DNA of 33,753 nt from Desulfovibrio aminophilus DSM 12254 (GTDB taxonomy: Bacteria > Desulfobacterota > Desulfovibrionia > Desulfovibrionales > Desulfovibrionaceae). A model generated the notes under the pieces. It saw only the letters and a list, made by a program, of their open reading frames with translations. It was not told where the DNA came from and did not search any database. A program made the position numbers and the translations under genes. Of the stretch, positions 1,764-27,704 are shown in pieces. Every line of letters begins with the position of its first letter. The stretch's first letter is position 1. The DNA is taken from positions 1-33,753 of the forward strand of contig NZ_KE383876.1 of the NCBI RefSeq assembly GCF_000422565.1, given 5' to 3'.

Positions 1764-2717
1764 TTAAAAGCCGATGGCGATGTAGCAAATGTTGCGGATA
1801 TTTGGGCCGTTGTGCCGCAACCGGATTTGAGACAGGCTGGGCCTGCCGATATCAGCTCCGGCGTAAGAGCCAAAGCCGCCGGCAGGCCATCCCTGCGTGG
1901 CGGTGGCCACGGAGAACTGAGTGGGGAACGCGACAGGCAGGGTAAACGGCTGCTCCTCGCCCGCCTCCACCGCCACATTGCCCCACTGGATGATGAGGCC
2001 GCTGGGTAGCCGCTGATAGCCGCTACCGCCGAGACTGTACCTCATCGGGCCGGTCGGCATCTGCAGAAGTGCGGAGCCGCCGCTGTAATACCAAGTAGAG
2101 CCGCCGCCAGCGCCGACGATGGACAGCGTTTCGCCGGGGCAGAGGGTAATTTGCGTGACCCCTCCGGCGGCTGAAGGCCAGGCAAACTTGTCTGTGCCGG
2201 AGCAGGCGATGATTACGTTTTTTTGGGAATCGTTGTAAAAATGGTATCCACCTCCGATTCTGATGGTGGCGATTTGCGGTAGGGTCATCGTGATGACCTC
2301 GGTCCCACCGACGACAACGAGCTTCCCGAGGTCCGCGACGGTCAGCACTTGCGACGTGGTGTAGCCGATGAGGCCTCTCAAATTGCCCAACGCCATCTGC
2401 ACGAAGGCCGTGGTGGACACACTCGTGTCGTTGTCGAACTGGGGCGGCGTCGGCGCGGTGGGATTGCCGCTGAACACGGGGCTGGCCAGCGGGGCCTTGA
2501 GCGCCAGGGAGCCGAGCAGACTGGTGATGATGGAGCCCAACTGGCCGTCATTGGTCGGCGAGAGCGAGAGTCCGCCCGCGAGGACGGCCTTAACCAGTTC
2601 CTCCTGGACGACGTTCAGCCAGGCGGCCGTCACCACGGTCGCGGGCACGGCGGCGGCCGGGCTGCCCTCGGTGAACTTCTTGTCGGCCGTGGCCGTGGAA
2701 TGGTCGATCCGGTTCAT
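1764..2717 (-). CDS. Phage tail fibre protein with gp53-like C-terminal domain
   Basis: 317 residues beginning MNRIDHSTATADKKFTEGSP, the usual start of tail fibres that attach to Mu/P2-like baseplates. A virion-binding region with APLASPVFSGNPTAPTPP follows (a common fibre repeat), then a middle knob and a C-terminal domain with GYQRLPSGLIIQWGN, then TLPVAFPTQFS and CYIAIGF at the end. That C-terminal pattern is the receptor-binding fold found at the tip of many fibres. The gene starts right after the gp48-like stop. Base composition falls in the C-terminal half compared with the baseplate genes, a usual sign of exchange of fibre tips between phages. Confidence 0.85.
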   Translation of the reverse strand: MNRIDHSTATADKKFTEGSPAAAVPATVVTAAWLNVVQEELVKAVLAGGLSLSPTNDGQLGSIITSLLGSLALKAPLASPVFSGNPTAPTPPQFDNDTSVSTTAFVQMALGNLRGLIGYTTSQVLTVADLGKLVVVGGTEVITMTLPQIATIRIGGGYHFYNDSQKNVIIACSGTDKFAWPSAAGGVTQITLCPGETLSIVGAGGGSTWYYSGGSALLQMPTGPMRYSLGGSGYQRLPSGLIIQWGNVAVEAGEEQPFTLPVAFPTQFSVATATQGWPAGGFGSYAGADIGRPSLSQIRLRHNGPNIRNICYIAIGF

Positions 2718-3323
2718 TTATTCCTCCTTTGGTCCGTAGGCGAAGAGCACGATGAGATGGGCCTGGGCGCGGCGGCGCAGTTCGCATTCGAGCAACGCGT
2801 CGCCCCATTCGGCCAGGGGCTCGGCGGCGCAGGAGCCTCCGGCGGTGAACGGGCGGATGGTGACGACGTCGGCCGTGCGCAGCAGGAAGGCGTGGGCCCA
2901 GTCCCCGTTAGACAGGGGGTCGCCCGCCCGGGATAGCCCGGCGCGGAACGGCCGGAACTCCTCCACCCTGGCCCCGACGTAGCCCAGGGCCTCGGCCAGG
3001 GCCTCATGATCCGCCGGACGCTGGCCGTAGCGGGCCGTCAGGTGGGTGTGAACGGCCCGCCGCCGGGCCGCGAGCGTGGTCGGGGCGGCGGCCACGCAGG
3101 GACCAGGCAGGCCGCATATCCGCTCCCAATCCGGAAGCAGCTCCGTGGCCGTGCGCGGGTCCGCCTCGGTCCACAGGTCGGCGGCCCGGGCGTCCACGCG
3201 GGCCAGCTCCTCGGCCTCGGCCGCGAGGAGCGCGCCCCAGACCGTGCCGGGGTCCCGCGGCAGGGCCGCGCCGGGCGGCTGCAGGGCCATGAGCAAGTCC
3301 AGATACCTTTCAGCGTCGAGCAT
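2718..3323 (-). CDS. Mu gp48-like baseplate/tail-end protein (DUF2313)
   Basis: 201 residues beginning MLDAERYLDLLMALQPPGAA. The block LLPDWERICGLPGPC, the RR--V--HL----GQ region and the downstream LLRTADVVTIRPFTAGGSC with LECELRRRAQAHL are characteristic of the DUF2313 family (Mu gp48/YmfQ), which links the baseplate wedge to tail fibres in contractile tails. The start overlaps the baseplate J stop by one base. It lies in the canonical gp46-gp47-gp48-fibre order. Length is normal and no internal defect is visible. Confidence 0.88.
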   Translation of the reverse strand: MLDAERYLDLLMALQPPGAALPRDPGTVWGALLAAEAEELARVDARAADLWTEADPRTATELLPDWERICGLPGPCVAAAPTTLAARRRAVHTHLTARYGQRPADHEALAEALGYVGARVEEFRPFRAGLSRAGDPLSNGDWAHAFLLRTADVVTIRPFTAGGSCAAEPLAEWGDALLECELRRRAQAHLIVLFAYGPKEE

Positions 3324-4378
3324 CAGGCCCCCCAGTCGATTGTCCCGAGCACGGCCAGTTCACCGGGCCCGCAGGCGAAGTCGGCGGCGGGCGACAGCAG
3401 GACGTGGTCCGCCTCGCCCACGGAGATGCTGACGGCCTCGGTGAGGTGCGAGCGCAGGATCGCGTCGCCGGGCACCGCCTCGCGGAAGAGCAGGTCGGCC
3501 AACTCGGCCAGGACCGCCGCGCGCACGGAGGCCGTGTCCGGGGTCAGGCGGATGCTCGGGTTGATGGGCTTGGCCAGGGGCGCGACCACGAAGACGTCCG
3601 CCTGGGTGGGGCGCTGCGCGTCGATGTGCGCCTGGACGGCGGCCACGTCCCCGGCCAGGGGAATGCCGTCGGGGTAGGCGCCGTCCATGAGGACGCGCAC
3701 CGTGACCGTGCCCGGGCCCAGCTCCTTGCCCTTCGCCCAGGCCCTGGTCACGCCGGGCACCTCCAGGGCCCACGCCTCGTAGTCCGCGTCGGTCCCGGCC
3801 TGGGGCAGGTGCTGGATGCGGGTCATGAGCCTGGCGCACAGGGGCTCGTCGGCCTCTTCGTCGGCCCCGCCGGTGAGCCCGCCCGTGGCCGCGCCCCGGG
3901 ACTGCACGCCGGACAGGGGCGAAACCAGGGACAGCAGGACGCCCGGGTCGGCGTTGCCGCCAGCGCCGGTCAGGCGCGCGGCCACGGGGACCAGGGCCGC
4001 GCCGTCGCCCACGATGGCCTCGGCCGTGGAGAGGTACTCCACGCCGTCGGCGCGTTGGAAGACGGTTCCGGCTGGGATCGCGGACCCGTTGGAGCCCTCC
4101 AGGCGGAGCACGCCGGAGGCCGCCTGCGCGGGCTTGCGGCGCACGGACCATATCCCGGCCCAGCGCTCCATGAATTCAGCCTCGGCCGTGTCCGGGAAGA
4201 GCTGGCGGCTCAGCCAGTCAAGGTAGCCGTACAGGCCATGCACGGCCCCGGCGCGCACGGTCGAGAGCACGCCCACCAGGGAACGCCGCAGGGCCGGGTC
4301 GGTGTCGGCCAGGCGCGCGGCAGTGTCCGCGCGGTCGCGTTCGATGAGTTCGGGCAGGGTCGGGCGCTTGAAGCTCAC
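3323..4378 (-). CDS. Baseplate assembly protein J-like (Mu gp47)
   Basis: 351 residues from a GTG at 4376-4378 that overlaps the gp46 stop as GTGA. Features are SFKRPTLPELIERDRADT at the start, FMERWAGIWSVRRKPAQAA, GTVFQRADGVEYLSTA, GGLTGGADEEADEPLCARL (the conserved G--GG-D-E-DE---R segment), PGVTRAWAKGKELGPGTVTV and IPAGTVF-type strands. This is the baseplate J/gp47 family, the wedge protein that forms the iris of contractile baseplates and responds to receptor binding. Length and motifs look complete. Neighbours on both sides are its normal partners gp46 and gp48. Confidence 0.92.
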   Translation of the reverse strand: MSFKRPTLPELIERDRADTAARLADTDPALRRSLVGVLSTVRAGAVHGLYGYLDWLSRQLFPDTAEAEFMERWAGIWSVRRKPAQAASGVLRLEGSNGSAIPAGTVFQRADGVEYLSTAEAIVGDGAALVPVAARLTGAGGNADPGVLLSLVSPLSGVQSRGAATGGLTGGADEEADEPLCARLMTRIQHLPQAGTDADYEAWALEVPGVTRAWAKGKELGPGTVTVRVLMDGAYPDGIPLAGDVAAVQAHIDAQRPTQADVFVVAPLAKPINPSIRLTPDTASVRAAVLAELADLLFREAVPGDAILRSHLTEAVSISVGEADHVLLSPAADFACGPGELAVLGTIDWGA

Positions 4379-4815
4379 AGGTTCCTCCAGATGCTGTCGA
4401 AACGGTAGCGCAGGCGCGAGCCGTCGGGCTTGCGGATCTCCACCAGCAGGCCGAGCATGCCGGGCCGGGTCCATTCGGCGCTCACGGCCACGGATTGAGC
4501 CACGCCGTCCTCCACGAGCCAGGCCAGGGCCTCGGCGGCATATTCCCGGGCCCGCTCGCGGACCTCGGGGAGCTGCTTCTCGCGGTCCAGGAGCCAGAGC
4601 CGGGAACCGACGCGGTCACCGGCGAGCCCGTAGGCGTCCGCCCACCAGCCCCGGCGATCGTCGGAGCCGTCGGGCAGCCGGTCGTCGGCCTCGGCCTCGC
4701 GGTCCAGGAACAGGGACAGGAGCACGGCGGTTTCCAGGCCCATGTCGCGGGCCAGGTCGCCGCCGGACACGGTCAGGTCGCCGGAGAGGTCCAGGAAGGC
4801 CAGCGCGGCGTCCAT
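4375..4815 (-). CDS. Mu gp46-like baseplate protein (GP46 family)
   Basis: 146 residues from the ATG at 4813-4815, preceded by GGAGGTGCCCTG; longer versions of the frame would run into the unrelated plus-strand L gene. The RRGWWADAYG segment with GSRLWLLDREKQLPEV is the hallmark of the GP46/W-like family, a small lysozyme-free baseplate wedge component of Mu-type tails. The start overlaps TGATG with a preceding stop codon that probably belonged to gp45 (see 4815-4860). This is the first intact gene of the Mu-like module, immediately beside the breakpoint with the lambda-like tail. Confidence 0.9.
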   Translation of the reverse strand: MDAALAFLDLSGDLTVSGGDLARDMGLETAVLLSLFLDREAEADDRLPDGSDDRRGWWADAYGLAGDRVGSRLWLLDREKQLPEVRERAREYAAEALAWLVEDGVAQSVAVSAEWTRPGMLGLLVEIRKPDGSRLRYRFDSIWRNL

Positions 4816-11069: not shown

Positions 11070-11627
11070 ATGATCCGCGTCAGCCGACACACGACAACCG
11101 GGCGCATCCTCTGCTCCCAGGGCGGGGCGCTGCCTGACGAGGCGACCATGAAGGCCAACGCGCTCTCCGCATTCCCGGACGTGCCGGGGGAAGAAATCGA
11201 GGTCGTGGACCTGACCGATGAAGAGTTCGCGGCGGCCCTGGCCGCGCAGAACGCGCCGACCCTGGAGCAGGCCAGGGCCGCCAAGCTGGCAGCGATCCAG
11301 GCGGAAAAGAACCGCGCGCGGGACGGCGGCGTTGTGGTCGACGGGGTGCGCTACGACACCGACGCCGGGGCGATCCTCATGTACGTGAGCTTCCTGGCCC
11401 AGATCGACGCTGACCCGGCGTACTCCACGGCCTGGAAGGCCAGCACCGGAGCGGACGGGCTCGGCGTCTGGGTCGATATGGACGCGGCCCTGTTCGCGCT
11501 GGTGCGCCCGGCCGTCGACGCGCACATCTCGGCCTGCTTCGCGTGGCAGGCCGCGCGCGAGGCCGAGGTGGCCGCAGCCCAGACCATCGCCGAGGTCGAG
11601 GCCGTGAGCGCGGAGTACGGGGGCTAG
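11070..11627 (+). CDS. DUF4376-type tail fibre accessory protein
   Basis: 185 residues, SD GGAGA upstream. The C-terminal ~110 residues (LAAIQAEKNRARDGGVVVDG, VRYDTDAGAILMYVSFLAQI, TADGLGVWVDMDAALFALV-like, FAWQAAREAEVAAA) are the DUF4376 domain found after phage tail fibres and on their chaperones. The N-terminal ~65 residues (TGRILCSQGGALPDEATM, EEIEVVDLTDEEF) form a small separate domain. It is the last gene of the tail cluster. Its stop TAG at 11625-11627 interlocks with the stop of the convergent protease gene through a shared CTAG. A chaperone or trimerisation role is inferred from position. Confidence 0.8.
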   Translation: MIRVSRHTTTGRILCSQGGALPDEATMKANALSAFPDVPGEEIEVVDLTDEEFAAALAAQNAPTLEQARAAKLAAIQAEKNRARDGGVVVDGVRYDTDAGAILMYVSFLAQIDADPAYSTAWKASTGADGLGVWVDMDAALFALVRPAVDAHISACFAWQAAREAEVAAAQTIAEVEAVSAEYGG

Positions 11628-12691
11628 TTCCTCATCTCCGGAACGAGGTCCGCTCCGGCGGCCCTCTTCTTTTCGATCTCGGCCCGGGTGGCGGCCAGGG
11701 CCGTGAAGCGTTCGGCGGAACCAGGGTGGGTGGAGCCGCCGCTCATGGCCTGGGGCGAGTCGGCGGCCATGCGCCGCCAGATCTCCGGCCCGGTTTCGAT
11801 GTCCGCCCCGGCGTTGGCCGCGAAGTACATGCCCACGTAGTCGGCCTCCATCTCGTATTCCTTGGAGTAGGCCAGCCCGCCGGCGTTCATGGCCATGCCG
11901 CCGGTGTTCACGCCCGTGGCCAGGGCGATGAGCAGGTCCAGGGCCGCGCCGAACCCGCGCCGCATCTTCATGGCGTCCACGTGGCCCATGACGTTGTGGG
12001 CCATCTCGTGGCCCAGGATCAGGGCCAGTTCGTCGTCGGTTTTGGCGTAGTCCATCATGCCCTGGAAGACGTACACCGCGCGGCCGTCGGCAAAGGCGTT
12101 CACGGTGTTGGAGTGGGCCAGAAAAAAAATGCTCGCGCAGACTTCGTCAGGATGGAGAACGGCGTCGAATTCCTTCCCGTCCCGGCGGACACGCAGGGTC
12201 ACGTCGCCTTTCTGGGCTTCCTTGTAAGGGATACCCCAGGAACGCATCACATCCTTTCGGGAGTGCATATCCAACGCTTGGCCGTTGACGGCCAGCACGG
12301 CATCCCCGCGCCGCAATCCGGCCTTGTCCGCAGACCCGCCGGGGGCCACGGTGACGATGGTCAACGCGTCGGGCTGGGTGCCCATGATCTTGGCGTAGGC
12401 TGCCGCCCAGTGTTCACCATCGGGGAGATACCCGTAGTGCATGAAGAAGACGCCGATGGAGTACGTGGTCTTCTGCATCTTCCGGCAGAAAGGGGCGTTT
12501 GTCTTGGCGAGCTGTTCGGACACGGGGACGAGCCGCGTCAGCTGCTTGTCCATCTTGTCCGCGAACATCTCCCGTTGCAGCTCCTGCTCCTGGGCCGTGG
12601 CGGTTGGGTCCACGCCCGGGGCCAGGGTCTTGCGGCCGCAGGCTGCCAGGGCCACGGTCAGGACGAGCAGGACGACGAGCGCGCGGGGCAT
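11624..12691 (-). CDS. PDZ-containing M48 metalloprotease lipoprotein
   Basis: 355 residues with a lipoprotein signal peptide (MPRALVVLLVLTVALAAC, lipid-modified Cys18), so it is predicted in the cell envelope. A PDZ domain spans about 103-176 (VTVAPGGSADKAGLRRGDAV). The M48 zinc protease follows with HEMAH at 228-232, the third ligand in EYEMEADYVGMY (Glu282) and the family THPGSAERF block near 321. The catalytic set is complete. It probably trims envelope or outer-membrane proteins, like other periplasmic M48 enzymes. It is the last gene of a minus-strand run that begins with the prophage repressor, so it should be made in lysogens. GGAGG precedes the start. It could instead be captured host DNA. 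Confidence 0.88.
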   Translation of the reverse strand: MPRALVVLLVLTVALAACGRKTLAPGVDPTATAQEQELQREMFADKMDKQLTRLVPVSEQLAKTNAPFCRKMQKTTYSIGVFFMHYGYLPDGEHWAAAYAKIMGTQPDALTIVTVAPGGSADKAGLRRGDAVLAVNGQALDMHSRKDVMRSWGIPYKEAQKGDVTLRVRRDGKEFDAVLHPDEVCASIFFLAHSNTVNAFADGRAVYVFQGMMDYAKTDDELALILGHEMAHNVMGHVDAMKMRRGFGAALDLLIALATGVNTGGMAMNAGGLAYSKEYEMEADYVGMYFAANAGADIETGPEIWRRMAADSPQAMSGGSTHPGSAERFTALAATRAEIEKKRAAGADLVPEMRN

Positions 12692-13123: not shown

Positions 13124-13585
13124 TCAAGGCCAGGGCGTGGAGTCGTAGACCCGCAGAACCTCGGCGCAGGAGTCCGGACGTTCGCCCCGGTGCTGGGCCT
13201 CCGCCTCCCTGGCCATGCCGGTCATGACCACGGCGAAATAGGCCGCGCGCGACTCCTCCGGGAAGCGTCTCTCGATCCACCGCCCCACGCGTTCGGCCTC
13301 ACGCGTGGTGTCCCGGCCGCAGCCCCCGGCGCGTCCGAGAATGACCGCGTAGCTCGTGAGCCGGTCGACGTCGTCGGGCGACGGCGCGGCGGCCGTCCCC
13401 GGACCATTCATGGCCGGTTTCCCCAGCGCTCCGATCAGGGCGAACACCGCCAGGAGGAAGGCCAGACACGCGACCACGGCCCCGAGCAGGACCCAGGGGT
13501 TGTTCAGCGCGCCGGGCGGTCGTTTGGGCGCGCGGGATCGCTTGAGTTGGTCCCAGTCCCGCTGCATCCTCTGGCGTTCGTTCAT
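13124..13585 (-). CDS. Single-pass membrane protein of the lysogeny operon
   Basis: 153 residues from the ATG at 13583-13585, which overlaps the repressor stop by one base. A basic cytoplasmic N-terminus (MNERQRMQRDWDQLKRSRAP) precedes one clear transmembrane helix (NPWVLLGAVVACLAFLLAVF) and then a periplasmic domain with two cysteines (GGCGRD, DSCAEVL), possibly a disulfide. I do not recognise the family. Direct coupling to the repressor gene suggests expression during lysogeny. Superinfection exclusion or lysogenic conversion is a reasonable guess but not shown by sequence. Confidence 0.65.
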   Translation of the reverse strand: MNERQRMQRDWDQLKRSRAPKRPPGALNNPWVLLGAVVACLAFLLAVFALIGALGKPAMNGPGTAAAPSPDDVDRLTSYAVILGRAGGCGRDTTREAERVGRWIERRFPEESRAAYFAVVMTGMAREAEAQHRGERPDSCAEVLRVYDSTPWP

Positions 13586-14307
13586 CACAGCTTCTGCATG
13601 ACCCAGACCGCGCGGCCCACGATGAGGTCGTCGCGGCCGTCGAAGGGCAGGCGCACGTCCGGGTGCGAGGGGTTGACGCTCTTCAGCACCAGGGACGGCC
13701 CGCCCGGGTCCACGAACACGCGCTTGATGGTCAGCCCCTCGTAGGGCACGCGCACGCCGTAGGACTCGCCCGCGATGATCCTGGTCTGGGCCGTGTCCAG
13801 GCCCACGAAGGCCCCCTTGCGGATGTCCGGCTCCATGCTGGAGCCCTCCACCTGCACGATGAGGACGCTCTCGCGGTAGTAGGTGAGCGGGATGCAGACC
13901 CGGGCGATGGGCTCCGGCTCCCAGCGCTCCACGGCCGGTCCGGCCCCGCTGGCGGAATGCACCTCCACCACCCGGCCCACGGGGCCCTCCCCGCCGGGCC
14001 CGACCACGCAGGCCGGGTCCGTGGGCGCGTTGGCGCCCAGCCTCCTGATGCCCATCCGTTCCGGTTCGCCTTCGCCCATGAGCAGCCACTCCGGTGAGAG
14101 ATTGAGGATGCGCGACATCTTTTCCAGGTCGTCCGCATGAGGCCGCTGGCCACGCTCCCAGGCCTGAACCTTGCCGTAACTGACGTCAAGGAAGCTGGCG
14201 AAAGAGCGTTGAGTAAACTCCTTGCCCTGCGAATTCAAAATATTCGCAGATTTTTTCTTAATATATTCAATCTGTTGAGCCCAAATTGGGGAAGGTTTGT
14301 TCTGCAT
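13585..14307 (-). CDS. Prophage repressor, HTH + S24 LexA-like peptidase
   Basis: 240 residues. An XRE-type helix-turn-helix fills about 30-75 (FTQRSFASFLDVSYGKVQAW, ERGQRP, NLSPEWLLMGEGEP). The C-terminal S24 domain has catalytic Ser157 (VEGSSMEPDIRKG) and Lys195 (YEGLTIKRVF). An Ala122-Gly123 pair lies 34 residues before Ser157, the same spacing as the LexA cleavage site, so RecA-stimulated self-cleavage on DNA damage is likely. The gene heads the minus-strand lysogeny operon and faces the early genes across the 14308-14399 control region. No Shine-Dalgarno is visible, which fits a short leader from the promoter described there. Confidence 0.92.
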   Translation of the reverse strand: MQNKPSPIWAQQIEYIKKKSANILNSQGKEFTQRSFASFLDVSYGKVQAWERGQRPHADDLEKMSRILNLSPEWLLMGEGEPERMGIRRLGANAPTDPACVVGPGGEGPVGRVVEVHSASGAGPAVERWEPEPIARVCIPLTYYRESVLIVQVEGSSMEPDIRKGAFVGLDTAQTRIIAGESYGVRVPYEGLTIKRVFVDPGGPSLVLKSVNPSHPDVRLPFDGRDDLIVGRAVWVMQKL

Positions 14308-15143: not shown

Positions 15144-15614
15144 ATGCGCCACGCCGACCTGCTCACGCTCAACGCCAAGGACGTGCTCAACCTCATGGTG
15201 GCCCAGTCCGGCCGGACCTGGGAGGACGTGGCCGCCGTCGTGGGCTGGAGCCCCACGGTCCTCAGCCGCGTCCGCTGCGCCACGGACGACTATTTCCCCA
15301 AGCTCACGGTGCTGCCGCGCTTCTGCGTGGCCAGCAAGTCCACCATGATCCTGGACTGGGTCGAGGCCCAGGTGGACGCGGCGGCCGTGCGTCTGGACGT
15401 CGACGCCCTGGACGCCAAGGGCTTGCTGCTCTCCATGTCCGGACTCCTGGAAGGGCTGGCCTCGGCGGCCAAGGCCGCGTCCGAGGCCATCAGCGACGAC
15501 AGGATCGGCCAGAGCGAGGCCAGGGACATCATCCGCAAGCTGCGGTCCCTGTCCGCCGCCGCCGTGCGCACTATTTCCGGACTGCGGCCCATCGCCGGGA
15601 CGGTGGAGGACTAG
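15144..15614 (+). CDS. Phage regulatory protein, CII/Rha-like helical
   Basis: 156 residues with GAGGAGATGACTGT before the ATG. The N-terminal ~60 residues (DVLNLMVAQSGRTWEDVAAV, VGWSPTVLSRVR) look like the DNA-binding part of the phage CII-type regulatory family (a W-DVA--VGW----LSR pattern). The rest is a long helical domain (LLSMSGLLEGLASAAKAASE, ARDIIRKLRSLSAAAVRTIS) suited to oligomerisation. Sits second or third in the early operon where such regulators are normally found. Target unknown. Confidence 0.6.
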   Translation: MRHADLLTLNAKDVLNLMVAQSGRTWEDVAAVVGWSPTVLSRVRCATDDYFPKLTVLPRFCVASKSTMILDWVEAQVDAAAVRLDVDALDAKGLLLSMSGLLEGLASAAKAASEAISDDRIGQSEARDIIRKLRSLSAAAVRTISGLRPIAGTVED

Positions 15615-15720: not shown

Positions 15721-16143
15721 ATGGGCAGAGTGAGAGGAATGTTCCTGCACGGCAAGCCGTGCCTCGTGGTGGAGATCGGGACTCCAGGCATCCGGGAGGC
15801 CTACGAGCAGCTCGTCAGGGCCGGGACCGGCGGGCCGGGGCTCATGGAGTTCATGGAGCGCGAACTGCCAGGCAGGAGCCTCCAGGGGCAGGACTTCGCC
15901 GGGATCATGGCCCGCGTGCACGAGGCCGCGGGCACCCGCACGCAGGTGGAGCTGGCCGACGCCCTGGGCGTGCGCCAATCGACCATTTCCGACGCCAAGC
16001 GCCGGGGAGGAGGCGTCCCGGCGTCCTGGATACTGACCCTGGCCCGGCGGGGCTTCAACCCCGACTGGCTGCTCACCGGCAGCGGCCCGCGCCACATCAT
16101 GCCCACGGATCAGGCCCCGGGCCAGACCCGGGCGGCGGCCTAG
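15721..16143 (+). CDS. Phage CI-repressor-type helix-turn-helix protein
   Basis: 140 residues, strong GGGAGGAGG ribosome site. Residues about 60-125 (FAGIMARVHEAAGTRTQVEL, ADALGVRQSTISDAKRRGG, FNPDWLLTGSGP) match the Phage_CI_repr domain, whose WILTLARRGFNPDWLLTG ending is diagnostic. No S24 peptidase follows, so this is not the SOS-inducible repressor at 14307. The N-terminal 55 residues (FLHGKPCLVVEIGTPGIREA) are not recognised. Probably a second transcription regulator within the early operon. Confidence 0.8.
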   Translation: MGRVRGMFLHGKPCLVVEIGTPGIREAYEQLVRAGTGGPGLMEFMERELPGRSLQGQDFAGIMARVHEAAGTRTQVELADALGVRQSTISDAKRRGGGVPASWILTLARRGFNPDWLLTGSGPRHIMPTDQAPGQTRAAA

Positions 16144-16152
16144 GAGGAGCAC

Positions 16153-17097
16153 ATGAACCTCACCCCGAACGACGCCGACATCCGCGCCCGCATGGCCGAC
16201 CTGGAAGTCCAGGTCACGCGCCACGACCGGCTCTATCACGAGGTCGGCGCGCCCGAGATCACCGACGCGGACTACGACCGCCTGCGCGTCGAGCTGGAGC
16301 GCCTGGAGGCGCTGCATCCGCATCTGGCGTCGGACCTCTCGCCCACGCGCCGCGTGGGCGGGGCCCCGGCCCGCTGGCTCTCGCACCGGAGGCTGGCCGA
16401 GCCCATGCGCTCCCTGCGCAAGGTCCGCTCCACGGTGGAGTGGGAGGAATACGCCTCCTGGGTGGCGGACCGGCTGGACCTCCCGGATTACGAGCTGGCC
16501 TGGAGCCTGGAGCCCAAGCTGGACGGCGTCGCCCTGGAGGCGGTCTACGAGGGCGGGCGGCTCGTGTCCGCCTGCACGCGCGGGGACGGCTGCCTGGGCG
16601 AGGACGTGACCCGCAACGCGCGGCTCATGCTGCCCGAGCGGCTCTCCAACGAGCGGAGGCTCGTGATCCACGGCGAGGTCGTCATTCCCTGGAACGAGTT
16701 CCAGGCCCTGAACGAGCGGCGCGCGAAGTCGTTCGACTCCCCGCGCACGGCGGTCCAGGGAGCGCTGCGCGGCAACGCGCGGGACGAGGTTCATGAGCGC
16801 GGGCTGCGCTTTCTGGCCTGGGAGAACCACACCCATGTCGAGCAGGCCCACTTCGACCGCATGAACGCCTTGAGCGTGGCCGGGATCGACGTGGTGCGGT
16901 CCAGAACGATTCGTCTCCGGAATCCCCGTGAGGTTCTGGCGGAGGCCCGGGACCACTGGGTGATGCGCTGGAGCGATCCCGAGGGCTGCAACCTGGCCTG
17001 CGACGGCATGGTGCTCAAGCTCGACTCCATGCACCATCGCCGGGCCCTGGGCTCCACCTCCACCGCGCCGCGCTGGGCAGTGGCGCTCAAGCTCTAG
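16153..17097 (+). CDS. Stand-alone NAD+-dependent DNA ligase adenylation domain
   Basis: 314 residues with AGGAGCAC upstream. Domain Ia (HDRLYHEVGAPEITDADYDR) supplies the NMN-binding residues. The nucleotidyltransferase motifs all follow: EPKLDG with lysine 122 for AMP attachment, TRGDGCLGEDVTRN, IHGEV with Glu175, DGMVLKLD with Lys289 and PRWAVALK with Lys313 as last-but-one residue. Bacterial LigA is about 670 residues; this protein ends exactly after motif V and lacks the OB fold, zinc finger, HhH and BRCT domains needed for nick binding. It should be able to form ligase-AMP but may not seal nicks alone. It sits among early replication-accessory genes. Confidence 0.88.
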   Translation: MNLTPNDADIRARMADLEVQVTRHDRLYHEVGAPEITDADYDRLRVELERLEALHPHLASDLSPTRRVGGAPARWLSHRRLAEPMRSLRKVRSTVEWEEYASWVADRLDLPDYELAWSLEPKLDGVALEAVYEGGRLVSACTRGDGCLGEDVTRNARLMLPERLSNERRLVIHGEVVIPWNEFQALNERRAKSFDSPRTAVQGALRGNARDEVHERGLRFLAWENHTHVEQAHFDRMNALSVAGIDVVRSRTIRLRNPREVLAEARDHWVMRWSDPEGCNLACDGMVLKLDSMHHRRALGSTSTAPRWAVALKL

Positions 17098-17106
17098 GAG
17101 GACGAC

Positions 17107-20348: not shown

Positions 20349-20995
20349 TCCGCCCTATCCTTTTCTCCGGCGACATGGTTCGCGCCATCCTGGACGGCAG
20401 GAAGACCGAGACGCGGCGGCCGGTGAAGCCCTGCAAGGACGTTAATTTCGGCTGTGAGCTGTCTCCTGGTGAAATAGCCGGTGAGGTCAATCAAGGGAAC
20501 GACTACCAGAATTGCCCCTACGGCCGCCCCGGCGACCTTCTCTGGGTGAGGGAGACGTGTTGGGTGTCTGGGGCATGGAGGCCGACAAAAAACAGCGACT
20601 CGGGGCGGTTCGTTCCGCTTGGTCCTGTTGCCTATCACGCGAATCAACAGCGTCCGGATGATAAGCTGATCCTGTTCCATGAGTGGCGCGTTACCCCCTC
20701 CATCCACATGCCGCGTTGGGCCTGCCGCCTCGTGCTGGAGGTGGTGAGCGTCCGCGTTGAGTGGGTGCAGGAGATCACCGAGGAGGGGGCGAAGGCGGAA
20801 GGCGTCTTGCTCACGAACACGCTCCCCGACGGTATGGAAGGGTTGTTCCGCCCTCGCTTCGCCGGACTCTGGGACAGCATCTACGCCACCAAGGGCCTGT
20901 CCTGGAACGCCAACCCCTGGGTTTGGGTGGTCGGGTTCAAGGTGGCGGCCGTCGGGAACGAGGCAGCGCAAGCCGTGATGAGGGCCGCCGCATGA
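20345..20995 (+). CDS. ASCH-domain phage protein
   Basis: 216 residues beginning MIRPILFSGDMVRAILDGRK, TETRRPVKP, the unmistakable start of phage ASCH proteins (LF---MV-AIL-G-KT-TRR). Later blocks PYGRPGDLLWVRETCW, HMPRWACRLVLEVVSVRVEW and GLWDSIYATKGLSWNANPWV, WVVGF are also canonical. Probably an RNA- or modified-nucleotide-binding protein of the early region; true ligand unknown. Start overlaps the DUF5131 remnant stop and its stop overlaps the Dcm start as ATGA. GAGGTGGGGAG lies before the ATG. Confidence 0.9.
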   Translation: MIRPILFSGDMVRAILDGRKTETRRPVKPCKDVNFGCELSPGEIAGEVNQGNDYQNCPYGRPGDLLWVRETCWVSGAWRPTKNSDSGRFVPLGPVAYHANQQRPDDKLILFHEWRVTPSIHMPRWACRLVLEVVSVRVEWVQEITEEGAKAEGVLLTNTLPDGMEGLFRPRFAGLWDSIYATKGLSWNANPWVWVVGFKVAAVGNEAAQAVMRAAA

Positions 20996-22737
20996 CCTCC
21001 CTCGTCATCGACCTGTTCGCCGGAGGAGGCGGGGCGTCCGAGGGCATCCGCATGGCCCTGGGGCGCGACCCGGACGCAGCGGTCAACCACGACCACCTGG
21101 CCGTGGCCATGCACAAGGCCAACCACCCCGGGACCACGCACTACCGGCAGGACGTGTGGGAGGTGTCCCCGTCCTGGGTCACGCGCGGCCGGAGGGTGGG
21201 CCTGCTGTGGGCCTCGCCGGACTGCACGCACTTCTCCAAGGCCAAGGGCGGGGCCCCGCGCCGGGACCAGAAGCGCCGCGATTTGGCCTGGGTGGTGGAG
21301 AAGTGGGCCCGCGAGGTCCGGCCGAATCTCATCCTCCTGGAGAACGTGGAGGAGTTCCGCACCTGGGGCCCGCTGGACCATGAGGGCAGGCCCATCAAGG
21401 CGGCCGAGGGCGAGACGTTCCGGGCCTGGGTGCGCAGCCTGCGCCGCCTGGGCTACGCCGTGCAGTTCCGCGAACTGCGGGCCTGCGACTACGGCGCGCC
21501 CACGATCCGCAAGCGCCTGTTCATGGTCGCGCGCCGCGACGGGCTGCCCATCGTCTGGCCCGAGCCCACGCACGGCGACCCCAAGAGCGCGGCCGTGCTG
21601 TCCGGCACGCTCCTCCCCTGGCGCACGGCGGCCGAGTGCATCGACTGGTCCATCCCGTGCCCGAGCATCTTCGAGCGCAAGCGGCCCCTGGCCGAGAACA
21701 CCCTGCGCCGCATCGCGGAGGGCATCCGGCGCTACGTGCTGGGCAAGGCCGAGCCGTTCATCGTCGGGATCGACAACGCCGGGGCCTGGAATGCCGTCTG
21801 GCCGTCAGAGGCCCCGCTCTCCACGGTCATCACCAAGGCGAAGCATTGCCTCGTTGTCCCCACGCTTGTGACCAACACCACGGGCCATGCCCCGAGCCCG
21901 GCGGACGCTCCTGTTTCGACCTTGACCACGGGGCAGCAGCAGATGCTCGCCTCGGCCTGCCTCGTGGGCGCTGGCGGCCCGAGCTACGGCGGCAAGCCTG
22001 CGGACGCGGACAAGCCCTTCAACACGCTCATGACCGAGAACCACACGGCGCTCGTGTCGGCCTTCCTGGCCGGTTGCGGCGGCCGGGCCGGGCAGAGCCG
22101 CCCGCGCGGGTCGGATGAGCCGATGGCCACCGTCACGGCCAAGGGCGACACGGCCGTGGTGGCGGCGCACCTGCAACGCGACTTCGGGAACAGCGTAGGC
22201 CAGGATGCGCGCGCTCCGCTCGGCACGATCACGGCCGGAGGGGGCGGGAAGGCCAGTGTCGTGACCTCCCATCTGGTCAAGCTGCGCGGCACCTGCAAAG
22301 CGGGCCAGCCCGTGCGCGAGCCCATGCCCACGGTCACGGCCGGCGGCCTGCACGTGGGCGAGGTCCGGGCCTTCCTGGTGAAGTACTACGGCGAGGGAGG
22401 CCAGTGGCAGAGCCCGGGCGATCCCATGCACACCATCCCCACCAAGGACCGCATGGGACTGGTCACGGTCATGGTCCAGGGGCAGCCCTACGTCATCGCG
22501 GACATCGGCATGAGGATGCTCCAGCCGCGCGAGCTGTACCGCGCCCAGGGGTTCCCGGACTCCTACGTCATCGACCTGGAGCACGAGGGCCGGGCCTTGT
22601 CCAAGAGCGACCAGGTGCGGCTCTGCGGCAATTCGGTCTGCCCGCCCATGGCCGCCGCGCTGGTGCGGGCGAACTACGCCGAGGCCATCCATGAGTCCCG
22701 CGACCCGCTGCCCCTGCTGGCGATGGGGGGCGAGTGA
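20992..22737 (+). CDS. Phage DNA cytosine-5 methyltransferase with repeated target-recognition region
   Basis: 581 residues. Motif I is DLFAGGGGASEG (7-18) for SAM, motif IV ASPDCTHFSKAKGG with catalytic Cys78 (the phage SPDC variant of PPC), motif VI ENVEEF (117-122), motif VIII near RKRLFMVARR, then motifs IX/X RMLQPRELYRAQGFPDSYV and CGNSVCPP near 509-553. Between 275 and 490 seven degenerate repeats begin at residues 275, 307, 342, 377, 409, 444 and 478, each P-(L/V/M)-x-T-(V/I/L)-x-T followed by an L-V strand. The gene overlaps both neighbours by start-stop. It probably protects phage DNA against restriction. The core motifs are complete. Confidence 0.92.
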   Translation: MTSLVIDLFAGGGGASEGIRMALGRDPDAAVNHDHLAVAMHKANHPGTTHYRQDVWEVSPSWVTRGRRVGLLWASPDCTHFSKAKGGAPRRDQKRRDLAWVVEKWAREVRPNLILLENVEEFRTWGPLDHEGRPIKAAEGETFRAWVRSLRRLGYAVQFRELRACDYGAPTIRKRLFMVARRDGLPIVWPEPTHGDPKSAAVLSGTLLPWRTAAECIDWSIPCPSIFERKRPLAENTLRRIAEGIRRYVLGKAEPFIVGIDNAGAWNAVWPSEAPLSTVITKAKHCLVVPTLVTNTTGHAPSPADAPVSTLTTGQQQMLASACLVGAGGPSYGGKPADADKPFNTLMTENHTALVSAFLAGCGGRAGQSRPRGSDEPMATVTAKGDTAVVAAHLQRDFGNSVGQDARAPLGTITAGGGGKASVVTSHLVKLRGTCKAGQPVREPMPTVTAGGLHVGEVRAFLVKYYGEGGQWQSPGDPMHTIPTKDRMGLVTVMVQGQPYVIADIGMRMLQPRELYRAQGFPDSYVIDLEHEGRALSKSDQVRLCGNSVCPPMAAALVRANYAEAIHESRDPLPLLAMGGE

Positions 22738-25226
22738 TGCAGACCTACCGCGAATTCCTGGAGCGTAAAATCCGCTTGGCCCACGCCCGGGGCTTCGACG
22801 TGGACGCCTCCAGGGTCAACCCCATGCTCAAGCCCCACCAGCGCGACATCGTGCTCTGGGCCCTGGCCGGCGGCCGCCGGGCGATCTTCGCCGCCTTCGG
22901 CCTGGGCAAGAGCTTCATGCAGCTGGAGGTCTTGCGCCTGATCCAGGAGCGGGAAGGAGGTCGACAGCTCATCGTCGCGCCCCTGGGCGTGCGGCCGGAC
23001 ATGCTGGCGGACGCCGCCAAGCTCGGCATTCCCGTGGCCTTCATCCGCCGCACGGAGGATGCCGTCGGGCCCGGTCTGTACATGACCAACTATGAGAGCG
23101 TGCGCGACGGCAAGCTGGACGTAAACCTGTTCAACGCCGTGAGCCTGGACGAGGCGAGCGTGCTCCGCTCCTACGGCTCGCTCACCTTCCAGACGTTCCT
23201 GACCCTGTTCACCGGGGTCAAGTACCGCTTCGTGGCCACGGCCACGCCCAGCCCGAACCGCTACAAGGAGCTGATCCACTACGCCGGGTTCCTGGGCGTC
23301 ATGGACACCGGCCAGGCCCTGACCCGCTTCTTCCAGCGCGACAGCCAGAAGGCCAACAACCTGACCCTGTACCCGCACAAGGAGCGCGAGTTCTGGCTCT
23401 GGGTCAACTCCTGGGCGATCTTCCTGCAAAAGCCCTCGGACCTGGGATACTCGGACGAAGGGTACGACCTGCCCGAGCTGCACGTGCACTTCCACCAGGT
23501 CGCCGCGGACTCCGGGCCGGTGATGGACCGCGATGGCCAGCTCAAGCTCGTGGGAGACGCGGCCCTGTCCCTGCGGGACGCAAGCCGCGAAAAGCGGGCC
23601 AGCCTCCCGGCGCGCATCGCCAAGATGCTGGAGATCGTCCATGCCGAGCCGGAAGAGCATTGCATCATCTGGCACGACCAGGAGGCCGAGCGCCACGCCA
23701 TCAAGGCGGCCCTGCCCGAGGCCGTGGAAGTTTACGGCGCCCAGGACCTGGAGGCCCGCGAGGGCCACGTCGTGGACTTCATGGAGGGCAAGATCCAGTA
23801 CCTGGCCAGCAAGCCCATCCTGTCCGGGTCCGGGTGCAACTTCCAGCGGCATTGCCGCATGGCCGTGTTCCTGGGCATCGGCTTCAAGTTCAACGACTTC
23901 ATTCAGGCCGTGCACCGCATTCACCGCTTCCTCCAGGAGCGGGAGTGCCACGTGCACATCATCTACGCGGACACCGAGGCGCGGGTGCTGGAAGTGCTCA
24001 AGCGCAAGTGGCGTCAGCACGAGGACATGGTGGAGCGCATGACCGAGATCATCCGCAAGTACGGCCTGTCCCACGCGGACATGGCCGAGGAGCTGCGCCG
24101 GTCCATCGGCGTGGAGCGCATCGAGGTCCGGGGCAAGCTGTTCCTGGCCGCCAACAACGACTGCGTCGAGGAATGCCGGGGCATGGAGCCCGACAGCGTG
24201 GACCTGATCCACACGTCCATCCCGTTCGCCAACCACTACGAATACACCCCGAGCTACAACGACTTCGGCCACACGGACGGCAACGGCCACTTCTGGGAGC
24301 AGATGGGCTACCTGACGCCCGAGCTGCTGCGCATCCTCAAGCCGGGGCGCATCTACGCCTGCCACGTCAAGGACAGGATCCTGTTCGGCAACGTCACGGG
24401 CAAGGGCGCGCCCACGGTGAGCCCGTTCCATGCCGAGGCGATCTTTCACGCCCAGGATCACGGTTTCGACTACCTGGGCATGATCACGGTGGTCACGGAC
24501 GTGGTGCGCGAAAACAATCAGACCTATCGCCTGGGCTGGTCCGAGCAGTGCAAGGACGGCACCAAGATGGGCGTGGGCTCCCCGGAGTACATCCTGATCT
24601 TCCGCAAGCCGCAGTCCGACAGGACCAAGGGCTATGCCGACGTGCCGGTGGTCAAGGACAAGACCGGGTACAGCCTGGCCCGCTGGCAGGTCGACGCGCA
24701 CGCGTTCTGGCGCAGCTCGGGCGACCGCCTGCTGACCGCCGACGAGATGGCGGGCATGGGCCCGGACGTGCTGGCCAGGGCCTTCAGCGAGCGCAGCCTT
24801 CAGGCCGTGTACGACTACGAGGAGCACGTGCGCGTGGGGGAGGCCCTGGACCTGCGCGGGGCGTTGCCATACACGTTCATGGCCCTGGCCCCGGGCTCCC
24901 ATGACCCGGACGTGTGGCACGACGTGGTGCGGATGCGCACCCTGAACGGCGAGCAGAGCCAGAAGGGCCTGTCCAACCACGTCTGCCCGCTCCAGTTCGA
25001 CATCGTTGACCGGATCATCAATCGCTACAGCAACCCGGGTGATCTGGTCTTCGATCCTTTCGCCGGGCTCATGACCGTGCCCTACCGGGCCGTCAAGCTG
25101 GGCCGCCTGGGTCGCGGGGTGGAGCTCAACCCGGAATACTTCCTGGACGGGGTGAAGTATCTGCGCTGCGCCGAACAGGAAGTGACCGCCCCGAGCCTCC
25201 TGGACTTCTGCCGGAGCGCGGCGTGA
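22737..25226 (+). CDS. SF2 helicase fused to N6/N4 DNA methyltransferase
   Basis: 829 residues from an ATG overlapping the Dcm stop as TGATG. The N-terminal half is a Snf2-like SF2 motor: GLGKSF (54-60, Walker A), SLDEAS (136-141, Walker B), VATATPSPN (motif III) and FIQAVHRIHRF (motif VI, about 388-398). The C-terminal half (about 460-820) has the amino-methyltransferase motif IV as TSIPF at 493-497, then YEYTPSYNDFG, and motif I as DPFAGLMTVPYRAV near 773 in permuted order (beta class). It may methylate as it translocates, protecting injected phage DNA. DarB of P1 is a larger analogue by domain logic only. No missing core motif except the less common TSIPF for DPPY/TSPPY. Confidence 0.88.
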   Translation: MQTYREFLERKIRLAHARGFDVDASRVNPMLKPHQRDIVLWALAGGRRAIFAAFGLGKSFMQLEVLRLIQEREGGRQLIVAPLGVRPDMLADAAKLGIPVAFIRRTEDAVGPGLYMTNYESVRDGKLDVNLFNAVSLDEASVLRSYGSLTFQTFLTLFTGVKYRFVATATPSPNRYKELIHYAGFLGVMDTGQALTRFFQRDSQKANNLTLYPHKEREFWLWVNSWAIFLQKPSDLGYSDEGYDLPELHVHFHQVAADSGPVMDRDGQLKLVGDAALSLRDASREKRASLPARIAKMLEIVHAEPEEHCIIWHDQEAERHAIKAALPEAVEVYGAQDLEAREGHVVDFMEGKIQYLASKPILSGSGCNFQRHCRMAVFLGIGFKFNDFIQAVHRIHRFLQERECHVHIIYADTEARVLEVLKRKWRQHEDMVERMTEIIRKYGLSHADMAEELRRSIGVERIEVRGKLFLAANNDCVEECRGMEPDSVDLIHTSIPFANHYEYTPSYNDFGHTDGNGHFWEQMGYLTPELLRILKPGRIYACHVKDRILFGNVTGKGAPTVSPFHAEAIFHAQDHGFDYLGMITVVTDVVRENNQTYRLGWSEQCKDGTKMGVGSPEYILIFRKPQSDRTKGYADVPVVKDKTGYSLARWQVDAHAFWRSSGDRLLTADEMAGMGPDVLARAFSERSLQAVYDYEEHVRVGEALDLRGALPYTFMALAPGSHDPDVWHDVVRMRTLNGEQSQKGLSNHVCPLQFDIVDRIINRYSNPGDLVFDPFAGLMTVPYRAVKLGRLGRGVELNPEYFLDGVKYLRCAEQEVTAPSLLDFCRSAA

Positions 25227-27046: not shown

Positions 27047-27066
27047 CAAAACGCGGGGGCCGCTGA
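27047..27066. other. Predicted prophage end/att junction
   Basis: Between the integrase stop at 27044-27046 and the broken capsid gene. The capsid frame stays open backwards through this gap and reads KTRGPL before MNVEHASVPC, the expected sequence of the intact protein, so the crossover probably lies within or just before this 20-base stretch. The matching left end of the phage is not recognised inside the window, so the core repeat cannot be defined. Confidence 0.5.
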
Positions 27067-27704
27067 TGAACGTGGAGCACGCGTCCGTGCCCTGCCTCCT
27101 GGAGGACTGGTACGGCGCGGACTACGTGGACAAGCTCGACGAGCTGAAGTTCAAGCAGGACGAGCGGGCCGTGGTGGCCAACGCCGGAGCCTGGGCCCTG
27201 GGCCGCAAGATCGACGAGCTGGTCCTGGCCCGCATGGCCTTGAGCGACAACGCCCTGGCCCTGGCCGACAGCGGCCTGACCAAGGCCAAGATCCTGGAGG
27301 CCTTCGGGCGGCTGAACACGGCCGACGTGCCGGACGACGGCTCGCGCTTCGCGGCCGTGGGCGCGCGCCAGTGGAACGAGCTGCTGGACATCTCGGAGTT
27401 CAAGAGCGCGGACTACGCGGGCGACCGCTACCCCTGGCTCAAGGGCACCGAGTCCCGCGTCTGGCTCGGCATCACCTGGCTGTTCCATTCCGGCCTGCCG
27501 CTCTCGGGCGGCGCGCGGACCTGCTTCGTCTGGCACAAGAGCGCCGTGGGCCTGGCCGAGGGCCAGGACATCAAGTGCTTCATCGACTGGGTGCCGGAGA
27601 AGGCCGCCCACCTGGTGGACCACATGCTCTCGGCCGGGGCCTGCCTCATCGACACGAGCGGCGTGGTGGCCGTGCCCTGCAAGGACGACAGCCCGGCTGC
27701 CTAG
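27066..27704 (+). pseudogene. Major capsid protein, N-terminal third missing
   Basis: 212 residues from MNVEHASVPCLLEDWYGADY. Conserved blocks of the podovirus/Mu-like capsid family are present: YVDKLDELKFKQDERAVVAN, AYWALGRKIDEL-like helix, TKAKILEAFGRLNTADVPDD, RQWNELLDISEFKSADYAGD, YPWLKG and the ending VPEKAAHLVDHMLSAGACLI. Family members start about 70-80 residues earlier, with the N-arm and scaffold-contact region that is absent here. The gap before it has no good ribosome site. The simplest explanation is disruption by the integrase-bearing element to its left. Confidence 0.75.

Follow-up and report, generated by a model that had tools for sequence, protein, structure and literature searches.

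A gene in the regulatory/early region of a temperate phage in Desulfovibrio aminophilus DSM 12254 encodes a 314-aa protein that consists of the adenylation half of an NAD+-dependent DNA ligase, domain Ia and the NTase domain, and ends one residue after the lysine of motif V. A distantly related virus keeps the same gene with the same end point, and the short form therefore looks like a working gene and not a broken one. Judging from sequence, we see about an even chance that the protein uses NAD+ to form enzyme-AMP and works on the ends of nucleic acids, while another factor provides DNA binding in trans.

A ligase that ends at motif V

The stretch of DNA analysed here, referred to as the window, is 33,753 nucleotides long and represents one entire contig of a 25-contig genome. 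The full host LigA is encoded on another contig (C2). Positions of the features are listed in Table 1. The open reading frame on the window ends in APRWAVALKL-stop. In Pfam, DNA_ligase_aden (PF01653) matched residues 82-313 with an E-value of 6e-43, and Nlig-Ia (PF22745) matched residues 15-60 with an E-value of 1e-5, its score of 26.6 bits being just under the cut-off of 27. The closest solved sequences are LigA chains, those from H. influenzae and E. coli displaying 34-37% identity in the fold search, and the alignment reaches E. coli residue 314. The AlphaFold2 model (mean pLDDT 90.4, pTM 0.79) had LigA adenylation domains as its top PDB matches, with a TM of about 0.7 and a large rmsd. In common with bacterial LigA, the protein possesses domain Ia with counterparts of the NMN-contact residues (Y, H, D, Y, D), as well as an NTase domain with KxDG and all motifs to V. 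In contrast to LigA, it ends at residue 314, after motif V, and the OB domain, zinc finger, HhH and BRCT are absent. As a DNA pattern, motif V with its stop occurred once in the window and in none of 100 shuffled sequences. The preliminary description had stated that the nucleotidyltransferase motifs are kept through PRWAVALK with a stop one residue later; the reading frame and the alignment agree with this, and the active-site residues are kept except for Y225, which is replaced by W.

Table 1. Features of the window and short forms found in other viral records
Feature	Length	Positions	Strand	Remarks	Basis
CI-type repressor (HTH + S24 peptidase)		13585..14307	-		family match
CII-like transcriptional activator		15144..15614	+		family match, synteny with L163
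Helix-turn-helix regulator, upstream of ligase gene		15721..16143	+		family match
TAGGAGG		16141..16147	+	upstream gene's stop codon and apparent ribosome site of ligase gene	sequence
Stand-alone NAD+-dependent ligase adenylation protein (Ia + NTase)	314 aa	16153..17097	+		ORF, Pfam, fold matches, AlphaFold2
Domain Ia (NMN-binding)		16153..16377	+	approximate boundary	Pfam, alignment
NTase domain, motifs I-V		16378..17094	+	approximate boundary	Pfam, alignment
Nucleophilic lysine K122 codon		16516..16518	+	E. coli K115, KxDG motif	alignment; position counted from ORF start
Motif V lysine K313 codon		17089..17091	+	E. coli K314	alignment; position counted from ORF start
TAGGAGG		17095..17101	+	ligase stop codon (TAG at 17095) and apparent ribosome site of next gene	sequence, also so arranged in L163
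101-aa protein, no family	101 aa	17107..17412	+	L083 homologue in same place, 56% identity	family search, comparison
484-aa protein, paired CxxC motifs, no family	484 aa	17414..18868	+	L083 homologue in same place, 38% identity	family search, comparison
L176/L178	250 aa			Ia + NTase only	pattern scan
L187/L195	273-277 aa			Ia + NTase only	pattern scan
L179, L182, L185, L190, L192, L197	266-267 aa			L185 cut at its start	pattern scan
L102	304 aa			ends 7 residues past motif V lysine	alignment scan

Missing domains and the stop codon

Concerning the domains that usually follow motif V, their absence was confirmed by two kinds of search. A tblastn search with 24 LigA C-terminal parts detected no remnant of OB, zinc, HhH or BRCT domains in the six frames of the window or of L163, a stretch of the related viral contig described below (best E-value 0.028). 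This included the region after 17097, where the rest of the ligase would continue in another frame if the stop were an error. The profile for the OB domain (PF03120) matched once in the host genome, inside the full-length host LigA on contig C2. It had also been proposed that a separate OB protein might assist the enzyme; none was recognised in the window, in the host besides its LigA, or in the related virus records. A diverged OB partner is possible, since the AlphaFold2 model of the 484-aa neighbour was of low confidence (pLDDT 45) and was left out of the interpretation.

The ligase stop codon makes up the first three bases of the TAGGAGG that precedes the next gene, and does so in both phages. 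Given an identical junction in the homologous phage, the sequences make a sequencing error or a fresh nonsense mutation very unlikely as the origin of the stop. An artefactual frameshift is ruled out by the identical junction in an independent viral record and by the lack of a C-terminal remnant in any frame.

The same short form in a second phage

The homologue was identified by an alignment query in IMG/VR, a scan in which the best 80 of 520 relatives were kept. Among these, 73 continue for at least 300 aa past the match, 3 run off their contigs, 2 continue for 262 and 292 aa, and 2 are short. The homologue, L083, is encoded on a 42-kb contig (IMGVR_UViG_3300002821_000006), of which L163 is a longer stretch. 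Two later alignment scans gave this contig alone, and single-protein queries for close relatives resulted in one distant match each in genome contigs and viral contigs and none in two other searches. The L083 protein has 319 aa, is 59% identical to the window protein by MAFFT and 56% by BLAST, and ends in APRWAVALKF-stop.

The two phages have a gene order in common that comprises tail assembly, tail tip, M48 peptidase, a small protein (with a weak DUF2628 match in the window copy), CI, CII, the ligase, and the 101-aa and 484-aa homologues. The second helix-turn-helix gene of the window is missing between CII and the ligase gene in L083. The M48 peptidase, which carries a PDZ domain, lies on the opposite strand at 11624-12691 between the tail genes and the repressor, and is 68% identical to that in L163. 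Among 347 other genomes of the order, 10 gave weak matches to part of the 484-aa protein, as did 8 of 346 in a second search.

Lambda-like tail genes lie upstream of the ligase region, and a cytosine methylase, a helicase-methylase and a serine recombinase are found farther along the window. The methylase at 20992-22737 adjoins a phrog_16-type helicase fused to an N4/N6 DNA methylase (22734-25226). On the minus strand, Mu-like genes for baseplate and tail (1764-4474) stand beside the plus-strand lambda-like tail genes, indicating a mosaic or two prophages. A major head protein gene (27066-27704) directly after the serine recombinase gene has a family match only from about position 60 and no second match in the genome, and may mark an insertion site or a deletion scar. 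We also found an AT-rich island in this GC-rich contig (28687-29436), with a 249-aa, apparently membrane-bound protein that belongs to no Pfam family.

Conservation of the active site

Among 58 full-length ligases, 73 columns were at least 93% conserved, one of which (T322) lies past the stop of the window protein. The set was made without host LigA (L002 and L003; its match is split), L004, L023, L030, L051, L052 and near-identical copies. The window protein keeps 57 of the 73 columns and L083 keeps 56. Of the 57 kept by the former, 54 are also kept by the latter, compared with identity at 115 of the 237 other aligned columns (Fisher p 7e-12). At the active-site positions chosen, the window protein is identical to E. 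coli LigA in 20 of 21 cases and L083 in 19 of 21. Counterparts of E. coli Y22, H23, D32, Y35, D36, S81, L82, E113, K115, D117, G118, R136, E173, R200, R208, D285, K290, R308 and K314 are present in both family members. Y225 is W, also aromatic, in both, and the counterpart of R277 is S in L083 and doubtfully aligned in the window protein. Positions other than K115, D117, G118, E113, E173, Y225 and K290 were included as ones that we take to be important. For those seven, roles are described in PMC5052709.

Fourteen conserved columns are changed in both proteins, ten of them alike, namely the missing T322 and the nine substitutions D26G, F70L, H75L, N84K, R171H, N198S, N201T, A203V and Q297R. 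The same replacement is found at positions 26 and 84 in the T5-type A subunit, and likewise at 297 in L102, so that not all nine are special to this family. In the segment corresponding to E. coli 198-211, 7 of 12 conserved columns are changed in the window protein. Together with the nine common substitutions, this suggests that the DNA step may have been given up.

In a neutral simulation at the observed DNA divergence, amino-acid identity reached a maximum of 50% in 2000 runs, while the observed value is 59%; only 22 of the 2000 runs were free of stops, while the observed frames are open in both phages. Taking into account this result and the retention of conserved columns, a simple pseudogene is unlikely. 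The pN/pS of the ligase pair, 0.84, is above those of seven of nine other gene pairs (0.50-0.78, with tail genes at 0.76 and 0.78) and is exceeded solely by those of the CII-like gene (0.91) and the 484-aa gene (0.99), but the ratio is a weak measure and of little use here, since almost every third position is G/C and synonymous substitutions have little room left to increase. Over the final 107 codons of the ligase pair, pN is 0.44 and pS 0.43.

Short forms in other viruses

Viral records were scanned for a DNA pattern consisting of motif V, any residue and a stop. Of the 23 loci found, 12 carried ligase-type frames and the other 11 were due to chance. The 12 include a 77-aa fragment (L193) and a locus on the same contig as L083 (L183). 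L179, L182, L185, L190, L192 and L197 were caught because the stop in the pattern allowed TGG, and end 5-6 residues past the motif V lysine. With L102 from the alignment scan included, these stand-alone viral forms end 1-7 residues after this lysine. Identity to the window protein was 26-28% where BLAST aligned them, and 31% for L102. The lysines of motifs I and V, D117, E173, R208, D285 and K290 are kept in all 11 short viral rows aligned, a set that omits L185. Nine rows make up a distant clade, with Q at R200 in seven, and R at H23 and loss of R277 in all nine. In the distant mini-proteins of 250-277 aa, the TRGDGxxGED region is shortened.

The genes adjoining these short forms differ from those in the window. 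The mini-protein genes of L192 and L195 adjoin a minor-tail-like gene, and the stretches of L192 and L178 also hold helicase, primase-like and endonuclease/resolvase-like genes. Exonuclease-like genes likewise occur on stretches of this clade. PF03120 was detected in none of the 12 virus records with short forms, records of 15-52 kb that may be fragments. The controls for this search (host LigA, a full-length phage ligase and the T5-like A subunit) were all positive. Of the two things that a survey of phages had been proposed to look for, the same short form was found, in L083 and in the distant viral forms, and a neighbouring OB protein was not recognised.

As for named phages, four of the best matches and a fifth, unannotated match carry full-length ligases (5 of 833 matching records). 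BFVD holds short viral proteins of similar predicted fold, B3FJJ2 from Pseudomonas phage 201phi2-1 (308 aa), A0A2L1GHN0 (322 aa) and A0A1L7N0Y9 from Ralstonia phage RP12 (235 aa), and judging from these models, named phages may hold further short forms. A stand-alone Ia + NTase phage ligase was not found in the open-licence literature searched, among the titles and opening lines of abstracts listed.

Host survey and phylogeny

A further clear short form was found in none of 98 related genomes besides the window's own, in none of 347 other genomes of the order, among the matches listed and the per-genome match counts, and in none of 246 other genomes sampled from the phylum, among the matches listed. 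The search of the order covered 348 genomes including the window's own and gave at least 150 matches with frame lengths. The second ligase copies in G032 and G089 are long. Ten genomes of the order were unclear and contain pieces of broken, inserted or contig-cut ligases. G118 has two overlapping ligase frames of 241 and 172 aa, and a short frame of 288 aa in G029 (contig C177) covers residues 8-105 only and lies 55 bases from the contig start. The matches listed for the phylum sample include two frames, of 375 and 412 aa.

In the phylogenetic tree, from which the host's own LigA was left out, the window protein pairs with L083 with full support, and a long stem (3.65) leads to the pair. Around it is a group of 28 rows (support 83/99), in which all 25 cellular rows are from the host's order. 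L102 has two full-length ligases of phages as its companions (100/98), and a single clade unites the nine other short rows (99/97). These positions suggest several independent truncations but do not prove them; a common clade for all 12 short forms was not rejected (AU p 0.092), and the long branches make placements in the tree uncertain.

Comparison with split and inactive ligases

The T5-like split NAD+ ligase, composed of subunits A and B, is also phage-encoded and has a short catalytic polypeptide of about 320 aa with Ia and NTase. However, OB is retained in the T5-type A subunit (L051), with an internal PF03120 match and 79 residues past motif V, whereas the window protein has none. The split in T5-like phages comes after OB, and the B gene adjoins the A gene, whereas no recognisable B lies beside the window ligase gene, where a search with LigA C-terminal parts as queries gave no match. 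A split ligase of the T5 type was rejected on the lack of OB and on the two downstream neighbours, which belong to no family. A "phage heterodimeric DNA ligase" of PR1 is present in the PDB (entry titles 9hu3 and 9i5i).

In Pseudomonas phage Phabio (L199:6001-8992), PHABIO_331 and the beginning of a full-length NAD+ ligase gene overlap. This 332-aa protein also consists of Ia and NTase, and ends 20 residues past the motif V position, too short for OB. Its counterparts of K115, D117, E173 and the motif V lysine are R, T, V and I, and it is apparently a dead adenylation-type protein beside an apparently live ligase. The window protein, in contrast, keeps K122 and K313, and was therefore not assigned to non-catalytic paralogues of this kind.

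Possible functions of the protein

NAD+ ligases are usually pictured as complete clamps that enclose DNA. An isolated Ia + NTase fragment of the B. stearothermophilus ligase reportedly self-adenylates. Domain Ia of NAD+ ligases binds NMN and is needed for adenylation, but not when the enzyme is pre-adenylated and acts on DNA, according to PMC5052709. LigN without ZnF, HhH and BRCT but with OB forms enzyme-AMP at about the level of the full enzyme, as described in PMC1684257. The role of Ia in the first step of LigA, the LigN deletion and the fragment together make self-adenylation of the 314-aa protein likely. The gene was probably captured from a LigA of the host's order, to judge from its position in the tree, and would have been cut down to Ia and NTase before the two known phages diverged, as the tree and the common junction suggest. 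With the residues it keeps, and by analogy to known LigA chemistry, the protein would bind NAD+ and attach AMP to K122, with NMN as the leaving group. The AMP would most likely be passed to the 5'-phosphate end of a nucleic acid during phage replication or repair. Another protein would supply the grip on DNA, the first candidate being the conserved zinc-motif 484-aa protein two genes downstream.

We favour such work on nucleic-acid ends with help in trans because of the position of the gene beside phage regulators, the kept R200 and R208, and the replication-type genes near the distant-clade forms. Counting against it, all 12 records with short forms are without a recognised OB, hence no partner is in sight; the pN/pS of the ligase pair is high, and Q replaces R200 in most rows of the distant clade. 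The substitutions common to both family members also leave room for another acceptor. NAD+ depletion, with which the protein had been tentatively linked, is unlikely by itself, as one enzyme would take one AMP unless it is handed on. AMP transfer to another target and a role at modified nucleic-acid ends, which the preliminary description also raised, are conjectural.

An NAD+-powered transfer of AMP to a target other than a nick, such as a protein, an RNA end or a small molecule, strikes us as a doubtful but serious alternative. It would explain why adenylation residues are kept while near-fixed ligase positions have changed alike in both family members, and it agrees with the loss of OB, zinc and HhH and with the absence of a recognised partner. 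However, both family members retain counterparts of R200, R208 and motif V, which might be dispensable to an enzyme that does not handle nucleic acid; two of the distant short forms lie on stretches with replication-type genes, and there is no candidate target.

A protein that completes no reaction and instead controls or blocks host LigA or senses NAD+, as a decoy or regulator, is unlikely. The Phabio short copy, which has lost its catalytic residues beside a full ligase, indicates that non-catalytic copies exist, and the title of PDB entry 8jyd (312 residues) names a bacterial ligase as the basis of a genetically encoded sensor. The catalytic set, however, is intact in both family members and would be superfluous in a decoy.

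We consider a decaying fragment of a captured ligase highly improbable. The apparently truncated head protein gene in the window, the mosaic nature of the region and the rather high pN/pS would be in line with decay, but the end point is identical in a phage that is 41% divergent at the ligase protein, the gene junction is clean with an overlapping ribosome site, the frames are open and the catalytic columns are conserved. An erroneous stop beyond which the ligase domains continue, for which no supporting point was found, is next to inconceivable given the junction and the frames described above.

Returning to the favoured reading, in which the protein adenylates itself and works on nucleic-acid ends, the exact cut, the kept catalytic residues, the missing domains and the same short form in a divergent phage fit the selection for an adenylation core that the preliminary description had suggested. 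Only tentatively do we extend this to a conserved phage enzyme in which the NAD+-dependent adenylation half of a ligase may have turned into an independent module that transfers AMP to an acceptor of its own, an arrangement at which more than one phage lineage would have arrived separately. A lineage that keeps just the adenylating half, with a conserved active site, offers a direct test of that half alone in a cell. It bears on whether, outside the T5 case, ligases can function with DNA binding provided in trans, and on whether phages put NAD+-derived AMP to uses besides nick sealing.
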